This document shows positions 46,682-53,108 of a stretch of DNA of 64,000 nt, one piece after another. Under the pieces are notes generated by a model. The model searched no databases and was not told the origin of the DNA. It was given only the letters and a program-made list of their open reading frames with translations. Source of the DNA: Rhizobiales bacterium PAR1 (GTDB taxonomy: Bacteria; Pseudomonadota; Alphaproteobacteria; Rhizobiales; Beijerinckiaceae); contig NKIW01000002.1 of assembly GCA_002256205.1 (NCBI GenBank), forward strand, positions 186,001 through 250,000, written 5' to 3'. Within the stretch, counting starts at the first letter, position 1. Each line of letters opens with the position of its first letter. A program made the translations under genes and the position numbers.

Positions 46682-47695
46682 TCATTCCGCCGGCTGGGCT
46701 GCACCGGAAATCCGCGAGCCGGACTTGCGTTCCTGCTCTTCCTTGACCCAGATCGAATGGTGCTCCTTGGCCCAGTTGAGGTCAACCTCGCCCGAGGCCA
46801 TCGCATCAATCGCGCCTTCCATGCCCACCGAACCGATATAGATATGCGCAATGATCAGAGCCGTCATGATGAAGGCGATCGTTCCGTGTATCGTCGCATG
46901 CCACTGCGCTTCGGCCATGCCTTCGACCGTCGGGAACAGGAGATGCCAGCCGGAGAGCGACATCATCGCCCCACCGAGCACCACACTCCAGAACACGATT
47001 TTCTGGCCGCCATTGAAGCGTTTAGCCGGCGGATGCTTACCCTTGGACAGAAGCCCGCCGCCCGCGAGGAACCAGCGTATATCCGTTCTATCGGGGATAT
47101 TGTCCTTCACCCAGATCAGGAAGGTGAAACCGACGCCCGCCATGAAGGCAAAGCCGACGTAGTTGTGGATGATCTTGGCGAAGGAAGCCCAGGCAGAAAA
47201 AGCTTCCGGCCCGACAACCGGCAACAGCACTGACTTGCCGAAGGTAACATTGGCTCCGGTGACAGCCAGCATGATGAAGCTCGTCGCCGTCAGCCAATGC
47301 ACGAAACGTTCAAAGGCCGCAAAGCGCAGGATCTTCTGGCTCGAAGATCCCGCATCGATCCGGATCTTGCCGCGAATGAGGTAAAACAGCACGAGCGCAA
47401 CAAAAGTGCCCAGAAGCGCGAGCATTCCGAGACGCGGCAGCGTCTCCTGATTGTAGGCGCGCCAGTCACGTCCTGCCTGAATGAGGTTGGCCGCATCCTT
47501 ATTGGGGATCGAGGCACGCCCTGAAATCGGCTCGCCCGGCTTCAGAGCTTCAAGAAGCTGCGCTTCTTTCACCGATTGTGCGGTGGGGTTGACACTGGTC
47601 GGCTGCTGCGCGGCGGCAGGCAGTGCAGCACCCAAAATCAGGAGTGCCAGAGCGAAAAACGCGGTCTGGAACAGTCTGGAGAGCATCGAAGTCAT
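46682..47695 (-). CDS. fdhC: formate dehydrogenase cytochrome b556 (gamma) subunit
   Basis: 337 aa from an ATG at 47695 after GGGAGGCC. An N-terminal signal or anchor helix (MLSRLFQTAFFALALLILGA) and a periplasmic linker precede the Fdn/Fdo gamma core: four helices with heme-ligand histidines in ERFVHWLTATSFIMLAVTG, FAKIIHNYVGFAFMAGVGF, SGWHLLF and HATIHGTIAFIMTALIIAHI. It passes electrons from the iron-sulfur subunit to quinone. Last gene of the operon, overlapping fdhB only if the upstream start is used. Confidence 0.93.
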   Translation of the reverse strand: MTSMLSRLFQTAFFALALLILGAALPAAAQQPTSVNPTAQSVKEAQLLEALKPGEPISGRASIPNKDAANLIQAGRDWRAYNQETLPRLGMLALLGTFVALVLFYLIRGKIRIDAGSSSQKILRFAAFERFVHWLTATSFIMLAVTGANVTFGKSVLLPVVGPEAFSAWASFAKIIHNYVGFAFMAGVGFTFLIWVKDNIPDRTDIRWFLAGGGLLSKGKHPPAKRFNGGQKIVFWSVVLGGAMMSLSGWHLLFPTVEGMAEAQWHATIHGTIAFIMTALIIAHIYIGSVGMEGAIDAMASGEVDLNWAKEHHSIWVKEEQERKSGSRISGAAQPAE

Positions 47696-47781
47696 GTCGG
47701 CCTCCCTTTTCTTGTCTTGACGAATGCCATCTTGCGAAAAGCGCGGGCGGCGCGAGGCTGCCCGCGAGAAGAACGAGCGCG

Positions 47782-48378
47782 TCAAATCGCGATCGTCTCC
47801 TTGTAGGCGACCTTCCAGCCCCAGGCGCCGGAGCCATAGCCGCGCTTGGCGACACGCTCCTTGTAGATAGAGGCGATGATATCACCATCACCCGCGAGCA
47901 GCGCCTTGGTGGAACACATCTCGGCGCAGAGCGGCAGCTTGCCCTCCGCGAGGCGGTTACGACCATATTTGTCGAGTTCCGCCTGGCTGTGGTCCTCCTC
48001 GGGGCCGCCTGAGCAATAGGTGCACTTGTCCATCTTGCCGCGCGAACCGAAGTTGCCGGTCTTGGGATATTGCGGCGCGCCGAACGGGCAGGCGTAGAAG
48101 CAATAACCGCAACCGATGCAAAGATCCTTCGAGTGCAGCACCACCGCATCCGCCGTGGTGTAGAAGCAGCTCACCGGACACACCGAGGCGCAGGGCGCGT
48201 CGGTGCAGTGCATGCAGGCCATCGAGACCGAACGCTCGCCCGGCTTGCCATCGTTGATGGTGACCACGCGGCGGCGGTTGATGCCCCACGGCACTTCATG
48301 CTCGTTCTTGCAGGCGGTGGCGCAGGCGTTGCACTCGATGCAGCGATCCGCGTCGCAGAGAAATTTCATACGGGCCAT
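47782..48378 (-). CDS. fdhB: formate dehydrogenase iron-sulfur (beta) subunit
   Basis: 198 aa with four cysteine clusters for [4Fe-4S] centres: CIECNACATACKNEHEVPWG, CMHCTDAPCASVCPVSCFY, CIGCGYCFYACPFGAPQYP, and a last set CTYCSGG with CAEMC. It lacks the C-terminal transmembrane helix of the 294-aa E. coli FdnH, so it must be held by FdhA and the cytochrome subunit. GGAGAAAAC precedes the ATG. It transfers electrons from the catalytic subunit to cytochrome b. Confidence 0.95.
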   Translation of the reverse strand: MARMKFLCDADRCIECNACATACKNEHEVPWGINRRRVVTINDGKPGERSVSMACMHCTDAPCASVCPVSCFYTTADAVVLHSKDLCIGCGYCFYACPFGAPQYPKTGNFGSRGKMDKCTYCSGGPEEDHSQAELDKYGRNRLAEGKLPLCAEMCSTKALLAGDGDIIASIYKERVAKRGYGSGAWGWKVAYKETIAI

Positions 48379-48390
48379 GATGTTTTCTCC

Positions 48391-51360
48391 TTACGCCGCG
48401 CGGATCTGGCACAGAGTGCACTTGGTTTCCTGCATCCCTGTGACCGGATCGTAGCCATAGGTGGTGAGTGCGTTGACGCTTTCGCCAAGGACGTAGGGGT
48501 CGGCCCCCTTCGGGTATTTCGCCCGCTGGTCTTCGCCCTGGAACCAGCCACCGAAGTGGAACGGCATCCACGCGACGCCTTTGCCGACGCGCTCGGTCAC
48601 CATCGCCTTCATCTTGGCCTTGGAGCTGTTTTCCGGACCGAAGACCCAGACCCATGCGCCATCCTTGATGCCGCGATCCGCCGCATCCGCCGGATTGATC
48701 TCGACGAACATGTCCTGCTGGAGTTCAGCGAGCCACGGGTTGGAACGGGTTTCCTCGCCGCCGCCTTCGTATTCGACGAGGCGCCCCGAGGACAGGATGA
48801 TCGGGAATTCCTTCGCGATGCCCTTGTCCACTGCCGCCTTCTGCACCGTGAAGCCGATATTCGGCATACGGAACTGCTTGAAGTCCGGACGGGTCGGGTA
48901 CTGCGCCACAAGATCGGTGCGCGGGGTGTAGATCGGCTCACGATGGACCGGAATCGGGTCCGGCAGGTTCCACGCGTTGGCGCGGGCCTTGGCGTTGCCG
49001 AACGGAATACAGCCGTGCTCCAGCGCGACGCGCTGGATGCCGCCCGAAAGATCAATCGCCCACGACACGCCATCCGGCGTATTGCCGCCGATCTTCTCGA
49101 TCGTCGCCTTTTCCGCCTCGGTTAGATCCTTGTCCCAGCCGAGCTTCTTGAGCATCCCGTAGGTGAACTGCGGGTAGCCGTCCTTGAGTTCCGAATCCTT
49201 GGAATAGGACCCCTCGGCAAGAAGGTTGATCTTCTTGGTGGTCTTGTCCGCCTGCGGCTCGTCATATTCCACACCGAAGCGGGCGCGGAAGGTACCGCCA
49301 CCATCCTTGACGTGCAGGTTGGTGTTGTAGAGCTGATGCGTGCCCGGGTGACGATACTCCGGTGTACCCCAGCACGGCCACGGCAACCCATAATAGTCAC
49401 CCGCGATCTCAGTCGGCGCGTCTTTTGGTGCGCGCAGCGAAACCAGGTCAAACTTGTCCTGGTTCTTCATATGCGCCTTGAGGCGCTCAGGCGACTGGCC
49501 GCAATAGCCCGTCGACCAGCCGCCGCGATTGATCTCGCGCAGGATGGATTCCGGCTCCGGCTCCATGCCGAACTTGCCCTTCACCATCGTAATGTTCTTG
49601 AACATCTTGTCGGCGAAACCGAGCTTCTCGGCGAACTTGTTGATCACCCAATAATCGTTCGCACTCTCGAAGATCGGCTCGACAACCTTCTCGCCCCACT
49701 GGAGCGAGCGGTTCGAGGCCGTGCGCGAGCCGTTGGTTTCGAACTGCGTCGACATCGGCAGCAGGTAGGTACCGTCCTTGCGGTTCGAGATATGCGCGAA
49801 GGTCGTCGGATGCGGATCGCACACAACAACGATTTCCGCCTTCTCGAGACCCTTGGTCATCTCGGGTATACGCGTCACGGTGTTGCCGCCGTGGCCCATG
49901 ATGAAGAGGCCCTTGACGTTATCGCGCTGGGCGACCTGATCTTTCGGCATCGATACCGCATCGAACCAGCGGGTCGAGGGAATGCCGGGAACTTCCATCA
50001 TGGAGAGCTCCTTACCATCCGGCGCCTTGGTCGTGTCGAAACGTGCCTTGAGCCAGGAAACGTCCGTCTCCCAGACGCGACCCCAGTGTGCCCAAGCCGC
50101 CGCATCAATGCCATAGTAGAGCGGCAGCGAGGTGACATCGAGACCCAGATCAGTCGCGCCCTGCACGTTGCAGTGACCACGGAAAATGTTGGCGCCATTA
50201 CCGAAGCCGCCGACGTTACCGGTAGCAAGCAGCAGGATGCAGAAGGCGCGCACATTGGCCGTACCGACCGTCTTCTGCGTCGCGCCCATACACCAGATCA
50301 GGGTCGAGGGCTTTTCGGTCGCGAACTGCTTGGCAACCTTTTCAAGCTGCGCACCCGGAATACCAGTGACGCGCTCGACTTCGGCCGGTGTCCACTTCTC
50401 GACTTCCTTGCGCACCATGTCCATGCCGTAGACACGCTGCTGGATGAAGGTCTTGTCTTCCCAGCCGTTCTTGAAGATGTGGTGCAACATGCCCCAGATG
50501 ACCGGAATATCGGTACCCGGACGCATGCGGACATACTCCGTCGCGTGCGCCGCCGTGCGGGTCATGCGCGGATCGATGACGATCATATTGGCGCGGTTGG
50601 TTTCCTTGCCGGTCAGCACATGCTGCAACGAAACCGGATGCGCCTCCGCCGGATTACCGCCCATGATGATCATGGTTTTGGCATTGCGGATGTCGTTGTA
50701 GGAATTGGTCTGCGCGCCATAACCCCAGGTATTCGCGACGCCCGCGACCGTGGTCGAGTGGCAGATACGCGCCTGATGGTCGATGTTGTTGGTGCCCCAG
50801 TAGGCGGCAAACTTGCGGAAGAGATAGGCCCCTTCGTTCGAGAATTTGGCCGAGCCGAGGAACCACATCGCATCCGGGCCGGATTTCTCGCGAATATCCA
50901 GCATCTTCTTCGAGATTTCGTCGAAGGCCACATCCCAGGTGATGCGCTGCCACTCGCCGTTGACGAGCTTCATCGGGTACTTGAGGCGGCGCTCGCCCTT
51001 GACGAGTTCGCGCACCGAAGCGCCCTTGGCGCAATGGGTACCGCGGTTGATCGGGCTATCCCAGGACGGCTCCTGCCCGACCCAGACGCCTTCCTGCACC
51101 TCAGCCGTCACCGTGCAGCCCACAGAGCAATGGGTACAGATGTTCTTCTTGATCTCGACCGGCTTGCCGGGCTTCGGCATCGCGGCCTTGGCCTCACGCA
51201 CCGATGTAAGGCCGAGCGAGCCGACAGCGGCAAGCCCCCCCGCTGCCAGACCTGAACGGCGCAAAAACGAACGGCGATCGAGTCGCTCTGCACCCGTTGC
51301 CGCAAGGCTCGCGACCAGCGAACCACGAGCGGCCTGTCCTTCCCGACGCTTGATCAGCAT
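48391..51360 (-). CDS. fdhA: formate dehydrogenase catalytic (alpha) subunit, Mo-bis-MGD
   Basis: 989 aa DMSO-reductase-family enzyme oxidising formate to CO2. A Tat signal (DRRSFLRRSGLAAGG) directs it to the periplasm. The N-terminal [4Fe-4S] ligands are in ICTHCSVGC and THCAKGA. The active-site residue is Cys200 in RICHSTTVAG, encoded by TGC and not by a selenocysteine UGA; His201 follows. Further motifs: IIMGGNPAEAHPVSLQHVL, NVGGFGNGANIFRGHCNVQG. Its partners FdhB and FdhC lie directly downstream and its chaperone upstream. Confidence 0.97.
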   Translation of the reverse strand: MLIKRREGQAARGSLVASLAATGAERLDRRSFLRRSGLAAGGLAAVGSLGLTSVREAKAAMPKPGKPVEIKKNICTHCSVGCTVTAEVQEGVWVGQEPSWDSPINRGTHCAKGASVRELVKGERRLKYPMKLVNGEWQRITWDVAFDEISKKMLDIREKSGPDAMWFLGSAKFSNEGAYLFRKFAAYWGTNNIDHQARICHSTTVAGVANTWGYGAQTNSYNDIRNAKTMIIMGGNPAEAHPVSLQHVLTGKETNRANMIVIDPRMTRTAAHATEYVRMRPGTDIPVIWGMLHHIFKNGWEDKTFIQQRVYGMDMVRKEVEKWTPAEVERVTGIPGAQLEKVAKQFATEKPSTLIWCMGATQKTVGTANVRAFCILLLATGNVGGFGNGANIFRGHCNVQGATDLGLDVTSLPLYYGIDAAAWAHWGRVWETDVSWLKARFDTTKAPDGKELSMMEVPGIPSTRWFDAVSMPKDQVAQRDNVKGLFIMGHGGNTVTRIPEMTKGLEKAEIVVVCDPHPTTFAHISNRKDGTYLLPMSTQFETNGSRTASNRSLQWGEKVVEPIFESANDYWVINKFAEKLGFADKMFKNITMVKGKFGMEPEPESILREINRGGWSTGYCGQSPERLKAHMKNQDKFDLVSLRAPKDAPTEIAGDYYGLPWPCWGTPEYRHPGTHQLYNTNLHVKDGGGTFRARFGVEYDEPQADKTTKKINLLAEGSYSKDSELKDGYPQFTYGMLKKLGWDKDLTEAEKATIEKIGGNTPDGVSWAIDLSGGIQRVALEHGCIPFGNAKARANAWNLPDPIPVHREPIYTPRTDLVAQYPTRPDFKQFRMPNIGFTVQKAAVDKGIAKEFPIILSSGRLVEYEGGGEETRSNPWLAELQQDMFVEINPADAADRGIKDGAWVWVFGPENSSKAKMKAMVTERVGKGVAWMPFHFGGWFQGEDQRAKYPKGADPYVLGESVNALTTYGYDPVTGMQETKCTLCQIRAA

Positions 51361-51370
51361 GGTTTTCCCC

Positions 51371-51583
51371 TCAGTAGCGGTTGGTCGCGTAGTATTTCTT
51401 GACGTGCGCGGTTTCCTGATACCGCGCCTTTTTCTTCTCGGCGTCGCTCTCGGCGGCTTCCGCTGGGGCTACCGTCGCGGCGGTCGTCGCCGCTGCAGCT
51501 GAGGCGCCCGCAATACCGGCGCGGAGAAAATTCCGGCGCGCGAGATCAACGCCTTCGCGCGGTTCGTCCTGTTTCCGGGTCAT
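51371..51583 (-). CDS. formate dehydrogenase-region Tat-signal small protein
   Basis: 70 aa. The N-terminal half is a Tat signal (ARRNFLRAGIAGASAAAATT) and the remainder is short and basic, ending KKARYQETAHVKKYYATNRY. Tiny Tat proteins of this sort regularly lie directly before fdhA in proteobacteria; their role is unknown. Its start overlaps the stop of the HTH-TorD gene (ATGA), and fdhA follows 10 bp later. Confidence 0.85.
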   Translation of the reverse strand: MTRKQDEPREGVDLARRNFLRAGIAGASAAAATTAATVAPAEAAESDAEKKKARYQETAHVKKYYATNRY

Positions 51584-52416
51584 GCCGTAGCTCCCTCTTT
51601 GTCATCGGATGCTTGAGCATCCTGATCCGTATGGCTCTCGCCATCGAGCGCGAAAGCCTCGCGTTCAATCGCCAGAAATTCCTGCCCGAGGCGTCCGACG
51701 GTGCGATAGAAAATCGCCGCCTCGGCCTTCGAAAGGTCGGTAAAGAAGCGCTCCGCCCAGGGCTGGAGATGCCGTTCGAAGAAGCGACGCTCCTCGTTCG
51801 CCTCGGCCGCAAAGCGCTTGGTGACAAGGCCCGCCATCGATTCCATCAGAAAACCGATGTGATCTTCCGGCTCGCTCATCCCCTCGCCGCGCTCAATCCC
51901 GAGGCGGCGCATATCCTGCCGTGCCCGAACCAGCGGGCGCTCGTAGAGAAAACCGGTGATGTAATACGAGGCGTAGGGCAGCAATTCGCCGCGCCCGACG
52001 CCGATGAAGAGATCGAAATGCTCACGCGCGATCCGGTCCGCCACCGTGACATCCGCTGCCGCGACCAGCGCGCCCAAGGCCTGCCCCAGCGCACTGTCAT
52101 CGCCGGACATGCGGCGGATATCGATCAGTACACGCTCATCCGGCACATGCAGGATCAGCTTGGCGAGCAGGACGTAGAGATTGGCGCGCGCCTGATCGAT
52201 AGGATCGAGCGCAGCTTCGGCAGCATCTTCGCTGGGATAGAGGTCGGGACGAAGCACCGATCGAGGAACCGAGGTCAGCGTTTCAACCGCAATGACACGC
52301 TCTGCCGGCACGCGGGTCCAAATCGAAACCGAGGGCTGCGCAATACCGAGCAGCCGCGAGAGCGCGGAAATTCCACCAACAGCGCGAATGGCTTCTTGTA
52401 GCCCTGCGTCTCTCAT
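51580..52416 (-). CDS. HTH (YdaS/Cro-like)-TorD chaperone fusion protein
   Basis: 278 aa from an ATG at 52416. Residues about 3-60 are a Cro/YdaS-type helix-turn-helix (LQEAIRAVGGISALSRLLGI, AQPSVSIWTRVPAERVIAVE, then RSVLRPDLYP). From about residue 70 it is a TorD/DmsD-family chaperone (DQARANLYVLLAKLILHVPD; REHFDLFIGVGRGELLPYAS; DHIGFLMESMAGLV). TorD-type chaperones bind the Tat leader of molybdoenzymes and hold them until cofactor is loaded. Joining this to a DNA-binding domain suggests coupling of FdhA maturation to transcription. That coupling is inference. Confidence 0.88.
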   Translation of the reverse strand: MRDAGLQEAIRAVGGISALSRLLGIAQPSVSIWTRVPAERVIAVETLTSVPRSVLRPDLYPSEDAAEAALDPIDQARANLYVLLAKLILHVPDERVLIDIRRMSGDDSALGQALGALVAAADVTVADRIAREHFDLFIGVGRGELLPYASYYITGFLYERPLVRARQDMRRLGIERGEGMSEPEDHIGFLMESMAGLVTKRFAAEANEERRFFERHLQPWAERFFTDLSKAEAAIFYRTVGRLGQEFLAIEREAFALDGESHTDQDAQASDDKEGATA

Positions 52417-52469: not shown

Positions 52470-52497
52470 CATATAGGTCACACCTATGCCTCGGCAA
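52470..52497 (-). promoter_or_regulatory. candidate promoter with overlapping palindrome before the HTH-TorD gene
   Basis: Reading leftward, TTGCCG (52497-52492) and TATATG (52475-52470) are separated by 16 bp. The perfect inverted repeat ATAGGTCACACCTAT (52473-52487) covers the spacer and the -10 box. It lies about 55 bp before the HTH-TorD start, in a 95-bp gap inside the FDH gene run. A repressor bound here would block this promoter. The natural candidate is the adjacent HTH protein. Confidence 0.55.
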
Positions 52498-52511: not shown

Positions 52512-53108
52512 TCAACCCGGAACTGCGCCACCATGTCGCTTGCGGCGCGGGAAAGCCGGCTCCGAGGTCGCTATTTCGGATGCTTGAGGTGGAGTGTCGG
52601 CTGCATCCGACACCTCGGTTGTCGCAACGGGCGAAGGCTCGGGCAAAGCCTCCGAACGCAGCTCCGCAACAGGCGCGGCAGTCTCGGAGGCGATTTCTTC
52701 CGGTGTCTTCTCGCCGAAAATCTGGCGTGACATCGCCGCAATATCGAGATCGGCATTGAGTGGGCCGAAACCCGGTACGCCAGCCGGATCATTAAAGTCC
52801 CAGCCGTAATCAACAGGACCGATATAATCCTTGAGGATCGGATCGAGTGTCCAGACCTTGTGCAAGGCTGCGTTCTTCAGCGCCTCCGGCACGCCTTTCT
52901 GGAGGAAGGCCACGACATCGCTCTCTCCGGTGATCTCGTCGATGGAGGGCAGCAACGAAACGTCGAACTCTTCGTCAGGCGGGGTCGTCTCAACGACTTC
53001 CACCGGCTTGGGCTCTTCGACAACCGCAGGCTCGACGGCCAAGGCTCGCTTGCGCTGCGACCAGCGCGACAGAAAGCCACCGCTATTGGATCCCCCCTCG
53101 CCGCTCAT
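52512..53108 (-). CDS. DUF3306 domain-containing protein
   Basis: 198 aa, acidic and proline-rich at both ends. The DUF3306 core is GGFLSRWSQRKRALA at the start, then FDVSLLPSIDEITGESDVVA, VWTLDPILKDYIGPVDYGWD, FNDPAGVPGFGPL. The protein has no signal peptide and is probably cytosolic. It overlaps DUF3305 by 4 bp (ATGA). DUF3305/DUF3306 pairs occur beside formate dehydrogenase genes; no function is assigned. Confidence 0.88.
   Translation of the reverse strand: MSGEGGSNSGGFLSRWSQRKRALAVEPAVVEEPKPVEVVETTPPDEEFDVSLLPSIDEITGESDVVAFLQKGVPEALKNAALHKVWTLDPILKDYIGPVDYGWDFNDPAGVPGFGPLNADLDIAAMSRQIFGEKTPEEIASETAAPVAELRSEALPEPSPVATTEVSDAADTPPQASEIATSEPAFPRRKRHGGAVPG

Follow-up and report, generated by a model that had tools for sequence, protein, structure and literature searches.

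A Cro-type helix-turn-helix domain fused to a TorD-family chaperone in a formate dehydrogenase operon, and a candidate operator at its promoter

In a 64,000-nucleotide stretch of the genome of Rhizobiales bacterium PAR1 (GenBank assembly GCA_002256205.1, contig NKIW01000002.1, positions 186,001 to 250,000; hereafter the window, numbered from its first letter), we detected a formate dehydrogenase (FDH) operon on the minus strand encoding a protein in which a Cro/YdaS-type helix-turn-helix (HTH) precedes a TorD/DmsD chaperone domain. This protein, here called HTH-TorD, is single-copy in its own genome and has the following features.

51580..52416, minus strand: HTH-TorD fusion gene, 278 amino acids, ATG at 52416 and stop at 51580
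52240..52407, minus strand: Cro/YdaS-type helix-turn-helix, residues 4-59 (Pfam PF15943, AlphaFold2 helices, Foldseek match 3bd1)
52318..52338, minus strand: recognition helix region QPSVSIW, residues 27-33 (helix 27-31 in the model; conservation)
52330..52332, minus strand: codon of residue 29 (Ser), the identity of which tracks operator base 4
52204..52239, minus strand: linker, residues 60-71, a low-confidence stretch of the AlphaFold2 model
51637..52203, minus strand: TorD/DmsD chaperone domain, residues 72-260 (Pfam, AlphaFold2, Foldseek, profile search)
51859..51873, minus strand: EPEDH motif, residues 182-186, which aligns with EPADH in TorD 1n1c

A preliminary description of this DNA had proposed an FDH-operon protein that combines a Cro/YdaS helix-turn-helix with a complete TorD/DmsD domain, and Pfam, AlphaFold2, Foldseek and sequence profiles confirmed this architecture. 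In Pfam, YdaS_toxin (PF15943) matches residues 6-61 with 52.6 bits (curated cut-off 30) and Nitrate_red_del (PF02613) matches residues 106-225 with 104.6 bits (curated cut-off 22.2); P22_Cro, with a score of 28.6, is slightly under its cut-off of 30.2. Structure prediction, suggested in the same description as a check on the N-terminal fold, returned a Cro-like helix-turn-helix. In the AlphaFold2 model, built from a 15-row alignment (mean predicted local distance difference test score, pLDDT, 82; predicted template modelling score 0.68), the head comprises five helices (residues 4-13, 16-23, 27-31, 38-48 and 52-55, with ten-residue block means of 84-93), and past a low-confidence linker at about residues 61-70 helices resume at residue 72. 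When residues 1-66 were modelled alone with no alignment, quality was low (pLDDT 58), and this model was disregarded. Foldseek matched the head with the Xfaso 1 Cro protein 3bd1 (1.6 A, 40% identity, template modelling (TM) score 0.78 of target, E 0.07, probability 1.00), and the chaperone part with YcdY 9m26 (E 4e-4, TM 0.79 of target) and DmsD 3efp (E 8e-4, TM 0.63 of target). A profile search of PDB sequences recovered TorD 1n1c, Cro 3bd1 (E 6e-10) and DmsD 3cw0. Scores for the NCBI equivalogs were below their thresholds (NF003442 for TorD, 50.7 of 132 bits; NF008632 for DmsD, 45.2 of 162 bits), and judged by domain, fold and motif HTH-TorD is a relative within the TorD/DmsD superfamily, not TorD or DmsD proper. 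PF15943 carries the name "Bacterial toxin YdaS", which could be taken to mean that HTH-TorD is a YdaS-type toxin. We consider the probability of this negligible, as the fold match is a Cro protein, PHROG ranks a transcriptional repressor first and the gene lies in a conserved enzyme operon.

For comparison, 125 fused and 44 unfused TorD loci were fetched from the listed homologues, mostly from the order of the window; fused members include Rhabdaerophilum and Bradyrhizobium, among others. The recurrence of the same fusion across the 125 collected loci argues that the architecture is not due to chance. In the recognition helix, Q27, P28, S31 and W33 are conserved in 99-100% of the 125 fused proteins. 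The E-P-x-D-H motif has a role in binding the leaders of proteins exported by twin-arginine translocation (Tat). Because E/D-P-E-D-H is kept in 123 of the 125 fused proteins, their TorD domain probably still binds Tat leaders; 112 have exactly EPEDH, and the other 13 have DPEDH (11 proteins), EPEDG (L016) or EPEDN (L094). In-frame stops encountered in the G055 family were located where the matches overrun the end of the open frame, and were set aside.

Between the HTH-TorD gene and the DUF3306 gene upstream lies a short dyad that overlaps a likely promoter.

52473..52487: operator candidate ATAGG-N5-CCTAT, the sole perfect copy in the 4.2-Mb genome
52470..52475, minus strand: likely -10 box TATATG (by eye), into which the right arm of the dyad extends
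52492..52497, minus strand: likely -35 box TTGCCG (by eye), 16 bp from the -10 box

The segment 52470-52497, which the preliminary description had named as DNA for binding tests, thus contains the operator candidate. An in-frame TTG at 52497, coinciding with the likely -35 box in the window, is probably not the start codon, because homologues begin near a conserved R-D/E-x-G-L. The shorter pattern ATAG-N7-CTAT occurs once in the 64-kb window, at the operator candidate. When up to one mismatch was allowed, ATAGG-N5-CCTAT had 41 sites in its own genome (the perfect one included), barely above the 38 of a reversed control dyad. The HTH-TorD gene is present in 14 of 16 congeners, and the perfect dyad is found at its promoter in 13 of these 14, being the only copy genome-wide in 11. 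In the congener G001 the promoter carries ATAG-N7-CTAT and a single perfect ATAGG-N5-CCTAT occurs elsewhere, while one further perfect copy was found in G011 and two in G014. Across the same 14 genomes, the reversed control dyad has five sites. The arms lie about one helical turn apart, a spacing that would imply binding by a dimer.

To compare loci we scanned 400 bp upstream of the match start; for unfused loci the match start was used in place of a settled start codon, and among these 44 one region was shorter than 400 bp. The counts exclude L031-L038 and L042, which are contigs of G-genome loci included already, and L063-L077 (pattern hits). Of the 125 fused loci, 93 have ATAG-N7-CTAT (one of them also the ATAA form), 31 have ATAA-N7-TTAT alone and one has neither. 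The 44 unfused loci have no ATAG dyad and a single ATAA dyad, and nine free-standing relatives of the Cro domain have neither. The ATAG dyad is also present at L044, a fused-looking gene truncated by a contig end. Altogether 97 ATAG dyads fall within the 125 upstream regions, against three in the remaining 399,806 bp of the fused loci, where no ATAA dyad occurs. When all 3072 four-base dyads with spacers of 0-11 were tried, ATAG-N7 ranked top, with 93 fused regions, and the runner-up reached 38. The candidate operators comprise 91 distinct 15-base sequences, at 32-150 bp from where the domain begins, so the dyad is conserved while its interior and its distance vary. A class-wide profile search with the Cro domain identified 15 of 385 genomes at E 1e-7 and contributed four more fused loci, from other families, each of which has the ATAG dyad (three by script, L217 by eye).

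The form of the dyad follows a single position of the recognition helix. Ala29 is present in 31 fused proteins and accompanied by the ATAA dyad in 31/31, and Ser or Thr29 is present in 94, with the ATAG dyad in 93/94. The sole exception, L204, has no dyad and a decayed domain, in which the tryptophan following the recognition helix is gone, as are other core residues. A plasmid homologue outside the 125 combines Pro29 with ATAG. A mutual information ranking of domain residues against operator base 5 placed residue 32, within the recognition helix, first, but was confounded by relatedness and was not used. Because domain and dyad co-occur and residue 29 matches operator base 4, sequence comparison now gives strong support to the prediction, put forward in the preliminary description, that the N-terminal domain binds its own promoter DNA. 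The dyad could instead be the site of another regulator and the Cro domain a vestige, as might be imagined from the many TorD homologues that lack a Cro domain. Three observations make this very improbable, namely that the ATAG dyad is missing both from all 44 loci without the domain and from the fused locus with the decayed one, that residue 29 and operator base 4 change jointly, and that the recognition helix is nearly invariant.

We placed these changes on a tree of the TorD domain with 82 rows, made by a quick method with Shimodaira-Hasegawa-like approximate likelihood ratio support only; it includes 48 of the 125 fused rows and omits nine odd or fragmentary TorD-only rows. In the best tree, the Ala29 state requires two changes, one in a genus-level clade and one in L088. 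A single clade with support 100 holds 25 of the unfused rows. Nine further unfused rows, none with an ATAG dyad, fall among the fused rows and are most simply explained as domain losses, of which the well-supported branches by themselves demand only one change. In a Sinorhizobium meliloti plasmid the chaperone lacks a YdaS match; its gene begins 23 bp behind DUF3306, and the 82 bases inspected there show neither an ATAG nor a CTAT arm. The genus of the Ala29 clade includes two loci, L190 and L210 (G577 and G607), with Ser29 and ATAG, whereas every other member fetched from it has Ala29. The tree groups them with another family, and horizontal transfer of gene and operator as one unit is therefore likely.

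Related Cro domains were also found in other fusions. In family f144 (10 of 18 genomes) and in G756, the TorD of the FDH operon bears a different, more phage-like Cro domain (L219-L221 and L228-L237; tested with Pfam in one member, L221), and an ACAAA-N4-TTTGT dyad lies directly upstream of the f144 gene in 8 of 10 loci. Because the Cro domain differs, we read these genes as the probable product of a second fusion event. The first Cro domain also occurs in one frame with MobB in seven genomes (L191-L197, for example L191:4288-5139 and L193:4054-4881; confirmed by Pfam for L191 and L193 and judged from the sequences for the other five), with an ATAGG-N5-CCTAT dyad upstream of two of these seven HTH-MobB genes. 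A free-standing relative of 94 residues adjoins a CI-like gene in a prophage-like setting (by eye) and has a transcriptional repressor as its best PHROG match; this neighbour and the PHROG repressor matches point to a phage origin of the Cro domain. In L218 (G645:C86) a Cro domain shares a 579-residue frame with an NnrD-like protein (by eye), which may be two genes read through. At L100 (G211:C97), an additional TorD, from a genome in which HTH-TorD is present as well, shares its open frame with a sequence that by eye resembles DUF3306.

Taken together, we think it likely that HTH-TorD is a bifunctional chaperone and autorepressor of torD-fdhX-fdhABC (fdhX encodes a small Tat-signal protein) that may also couple transcription to maturation load. 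In this reading, the Cro domain would bind ATAG-N7-CTAT at the promoter lying between the HTH-TorD gene and DUF3306, and the bound protein, judged from the position of the site, would repress the operon. The TorD domain would bind the Tat leader of apo-FdhA and perhaps FdhX, as suggested by family knowledge and the conserved motif. Accumulating unloaded apo-FdhA may then, as the preliminary description had conjectured, occupy the chaperone and alter its DNA binding in either direction, linking transcription to maturation load.

The preliminary description had allowed the free protein either to repress or to activate. In the genus of the window the position of the dyad favours repression: its right arm reaches into the likely -10 box, and protein bound there would be expected to obstruct polymerase. 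In other genera the promoter is harder to recognize, and the repressor reading is weak because a -35-like motif lies near the dyad in only 38 of 124 loci (versus 1-23 of 124 in thirteen other bins). The same count gives some room to activation of the promoter by HTH-TorD, which we nevertheless regard as quite unlikely given the overlap with the -10 box.

A simpler possibility is plain autoregulation, in which the Cro domain would hold chaperone and enzyme at a constant level and occupancy of the TorD domain would leave DNA binding unaffected. In its favour, Cro proteins of phages act as simple repressors, the low-confidence linker of the model means that the two domains may act apart, and the same domain is also found on MobB, which is not a leader-binding chaperone. 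Against this, Cro-TorD fusions of two types occur in FDH operons and another maturation protein for the bis-molybdopterin guanine dinucleotide cofactor is fused as well, which suggests, as an argument rather than a test, that the physical connection between the domains matters in itself. We consider plain autoregulation credible but with a less than even chance of being correct.

Besides the sparse -35 motifs, several observations weigh against coupled autorepression by HTH-TorD. On well-supported branches only one change of residue 29 is demanded; the independent-pairs test for this residue has too few changes to reach significance, and the same test for domain versus dyad likewise has too few pairs (five at most). 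The 44 unfused controls may not all lie in FDH operons; 14 of them showed a DUF3306 match and 14 an FdhA match, most of these stretches having been truncated. The G756 fusion (L219) has no clear dyad, and the ATAG dyad was not found in the fetched stretch at five of the seven HTH-MobB loci; nor did a shared operator emerge upstream of these five genes.

Known systems share parts of this arrangement. HTH-TorD has in common with TorD/DmsD proteins (the NarJ subfamily of redox enzyme maturation proteins) the chaperone domain, the E-P-x-D-H motif and the place in an FDH operon, and differs from them by its DNA-binding domain and the matching dyad. With phage Cro/YdaS repressors (Xfaso 1 Cro 3bd1, P22 Cro and PHROG 35) it shares the fold, the position of the recognition helix, the L-R-P-D end of the domain and a dyad, in HTH-TorD a candidate operator, in its own promoter; these are free-standing small proteins, whereas in HTH-TorD the Cro domain fronts a chaperone. 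HrcA-GroE and HspR-DnaK are chaperone-titrated repressors in which chaperone load feeds back on transcription, as in the proposed model, but their repressor and chaperone are separate proteins and HTH-TorD is one polypeptide. Bifunctional autoregulators such as PutA and BirA are metabolic or maturation proteins that repress their own operon and sense a ligand or substrate; the signal proposed for HTH-TorD is an unfinished enzyme. Tat-leader chaperones are known as quality-control factors, and if HTH-TorD represses its own operon, one and the same polypeptide would link enzyme maturation to transcription. The rule relating residue 29 to base 4, together with the predicted operator, makes this coupling directly testable.

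The HTH-MobB fusions suggest that molybdenum-cofactor biology may hold a regulatory layer that extends beyond this locus. We tentatively speculate, and hold it to be rather unlikely as a whole, that a phage Cro module has repeatedly been recruited as a plug-in sensor head for molybdoenzyme maturation, at least twice by TorD with different operators and also by MobB, that HTH-TorD reads unfinished FDH and that FdhX may tune the switch. No HTH-TorD or HTH-MobB protein was found described in the literature searched, which excluded most subscription journals. Bay et al. (2015, PMC4464133) report fdh-linked groups of TorD and DmsD in FDH operons that also contain DUF3305 and DUF3306, as the HTH-TorD operon does; helix-turn-helix, Cro, fused, fusion and DNA-binding are all absent as terms from the main text of that article.

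The genes around HTH-TorD complete an FDH-3 operon.

52512..53108, minus strand: DUF3306 gene, the upstream neighbour of HTH-TorD
51371..51583, minus strand: FdhX, small 70-residue Tat-signal protein (TIGR02811, formate dehydrogenase region TAT target, 57 bits, cut-off 48.45)
48391..51360, minus strand: FdhA, molybdopterin subunit, with the twin-arginine leader DRRSFLRRSG (by eye)
47782..48378, minus strand: FdhB, FDH3 beta subunit (NF038355, 338.6 bits)
46682..47698, minus strand: FdhC, cytochrome b gamma subunit (TIGR01583, 160.8 bits; the stretch tested, start approximate)

On the minus strand, a lipoate/biotin ligase-like gene, DUF6505, DUF6352, DUF3305 and DUF3306 precede HTH-TorD, which is followed by FdhX, FdhA, the FDH3 beta subunit, the cytochrome b subunit, MobB and a MoeA-like gene (the latter by eye). 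A Bradyrhizobium plasmid has the identical gene order from the ligase-like gene through the gamma subunit. Its HTH-TorD is annotated merely as "molecular chaperone TorD family protein", and in genomes where a member bears only this annotation the putative regulator is hidden. Among the fused loci, 124/125 have a DUF3306 match and 109/125 an FdhA match, the 16 without FdhA being stretches that end just behind the gene. A motif test for a twin-arginine protein downstream was positive in 35 of 109 loci, the motif being overly strict, and tblastn with the FdhX of the window gave matches in 96 of 125. FdhX consists almost entirely of a Tat signal with a short tail and is encoded directly behind the chaperone gene, and is a candidate ligand of the chaperone.
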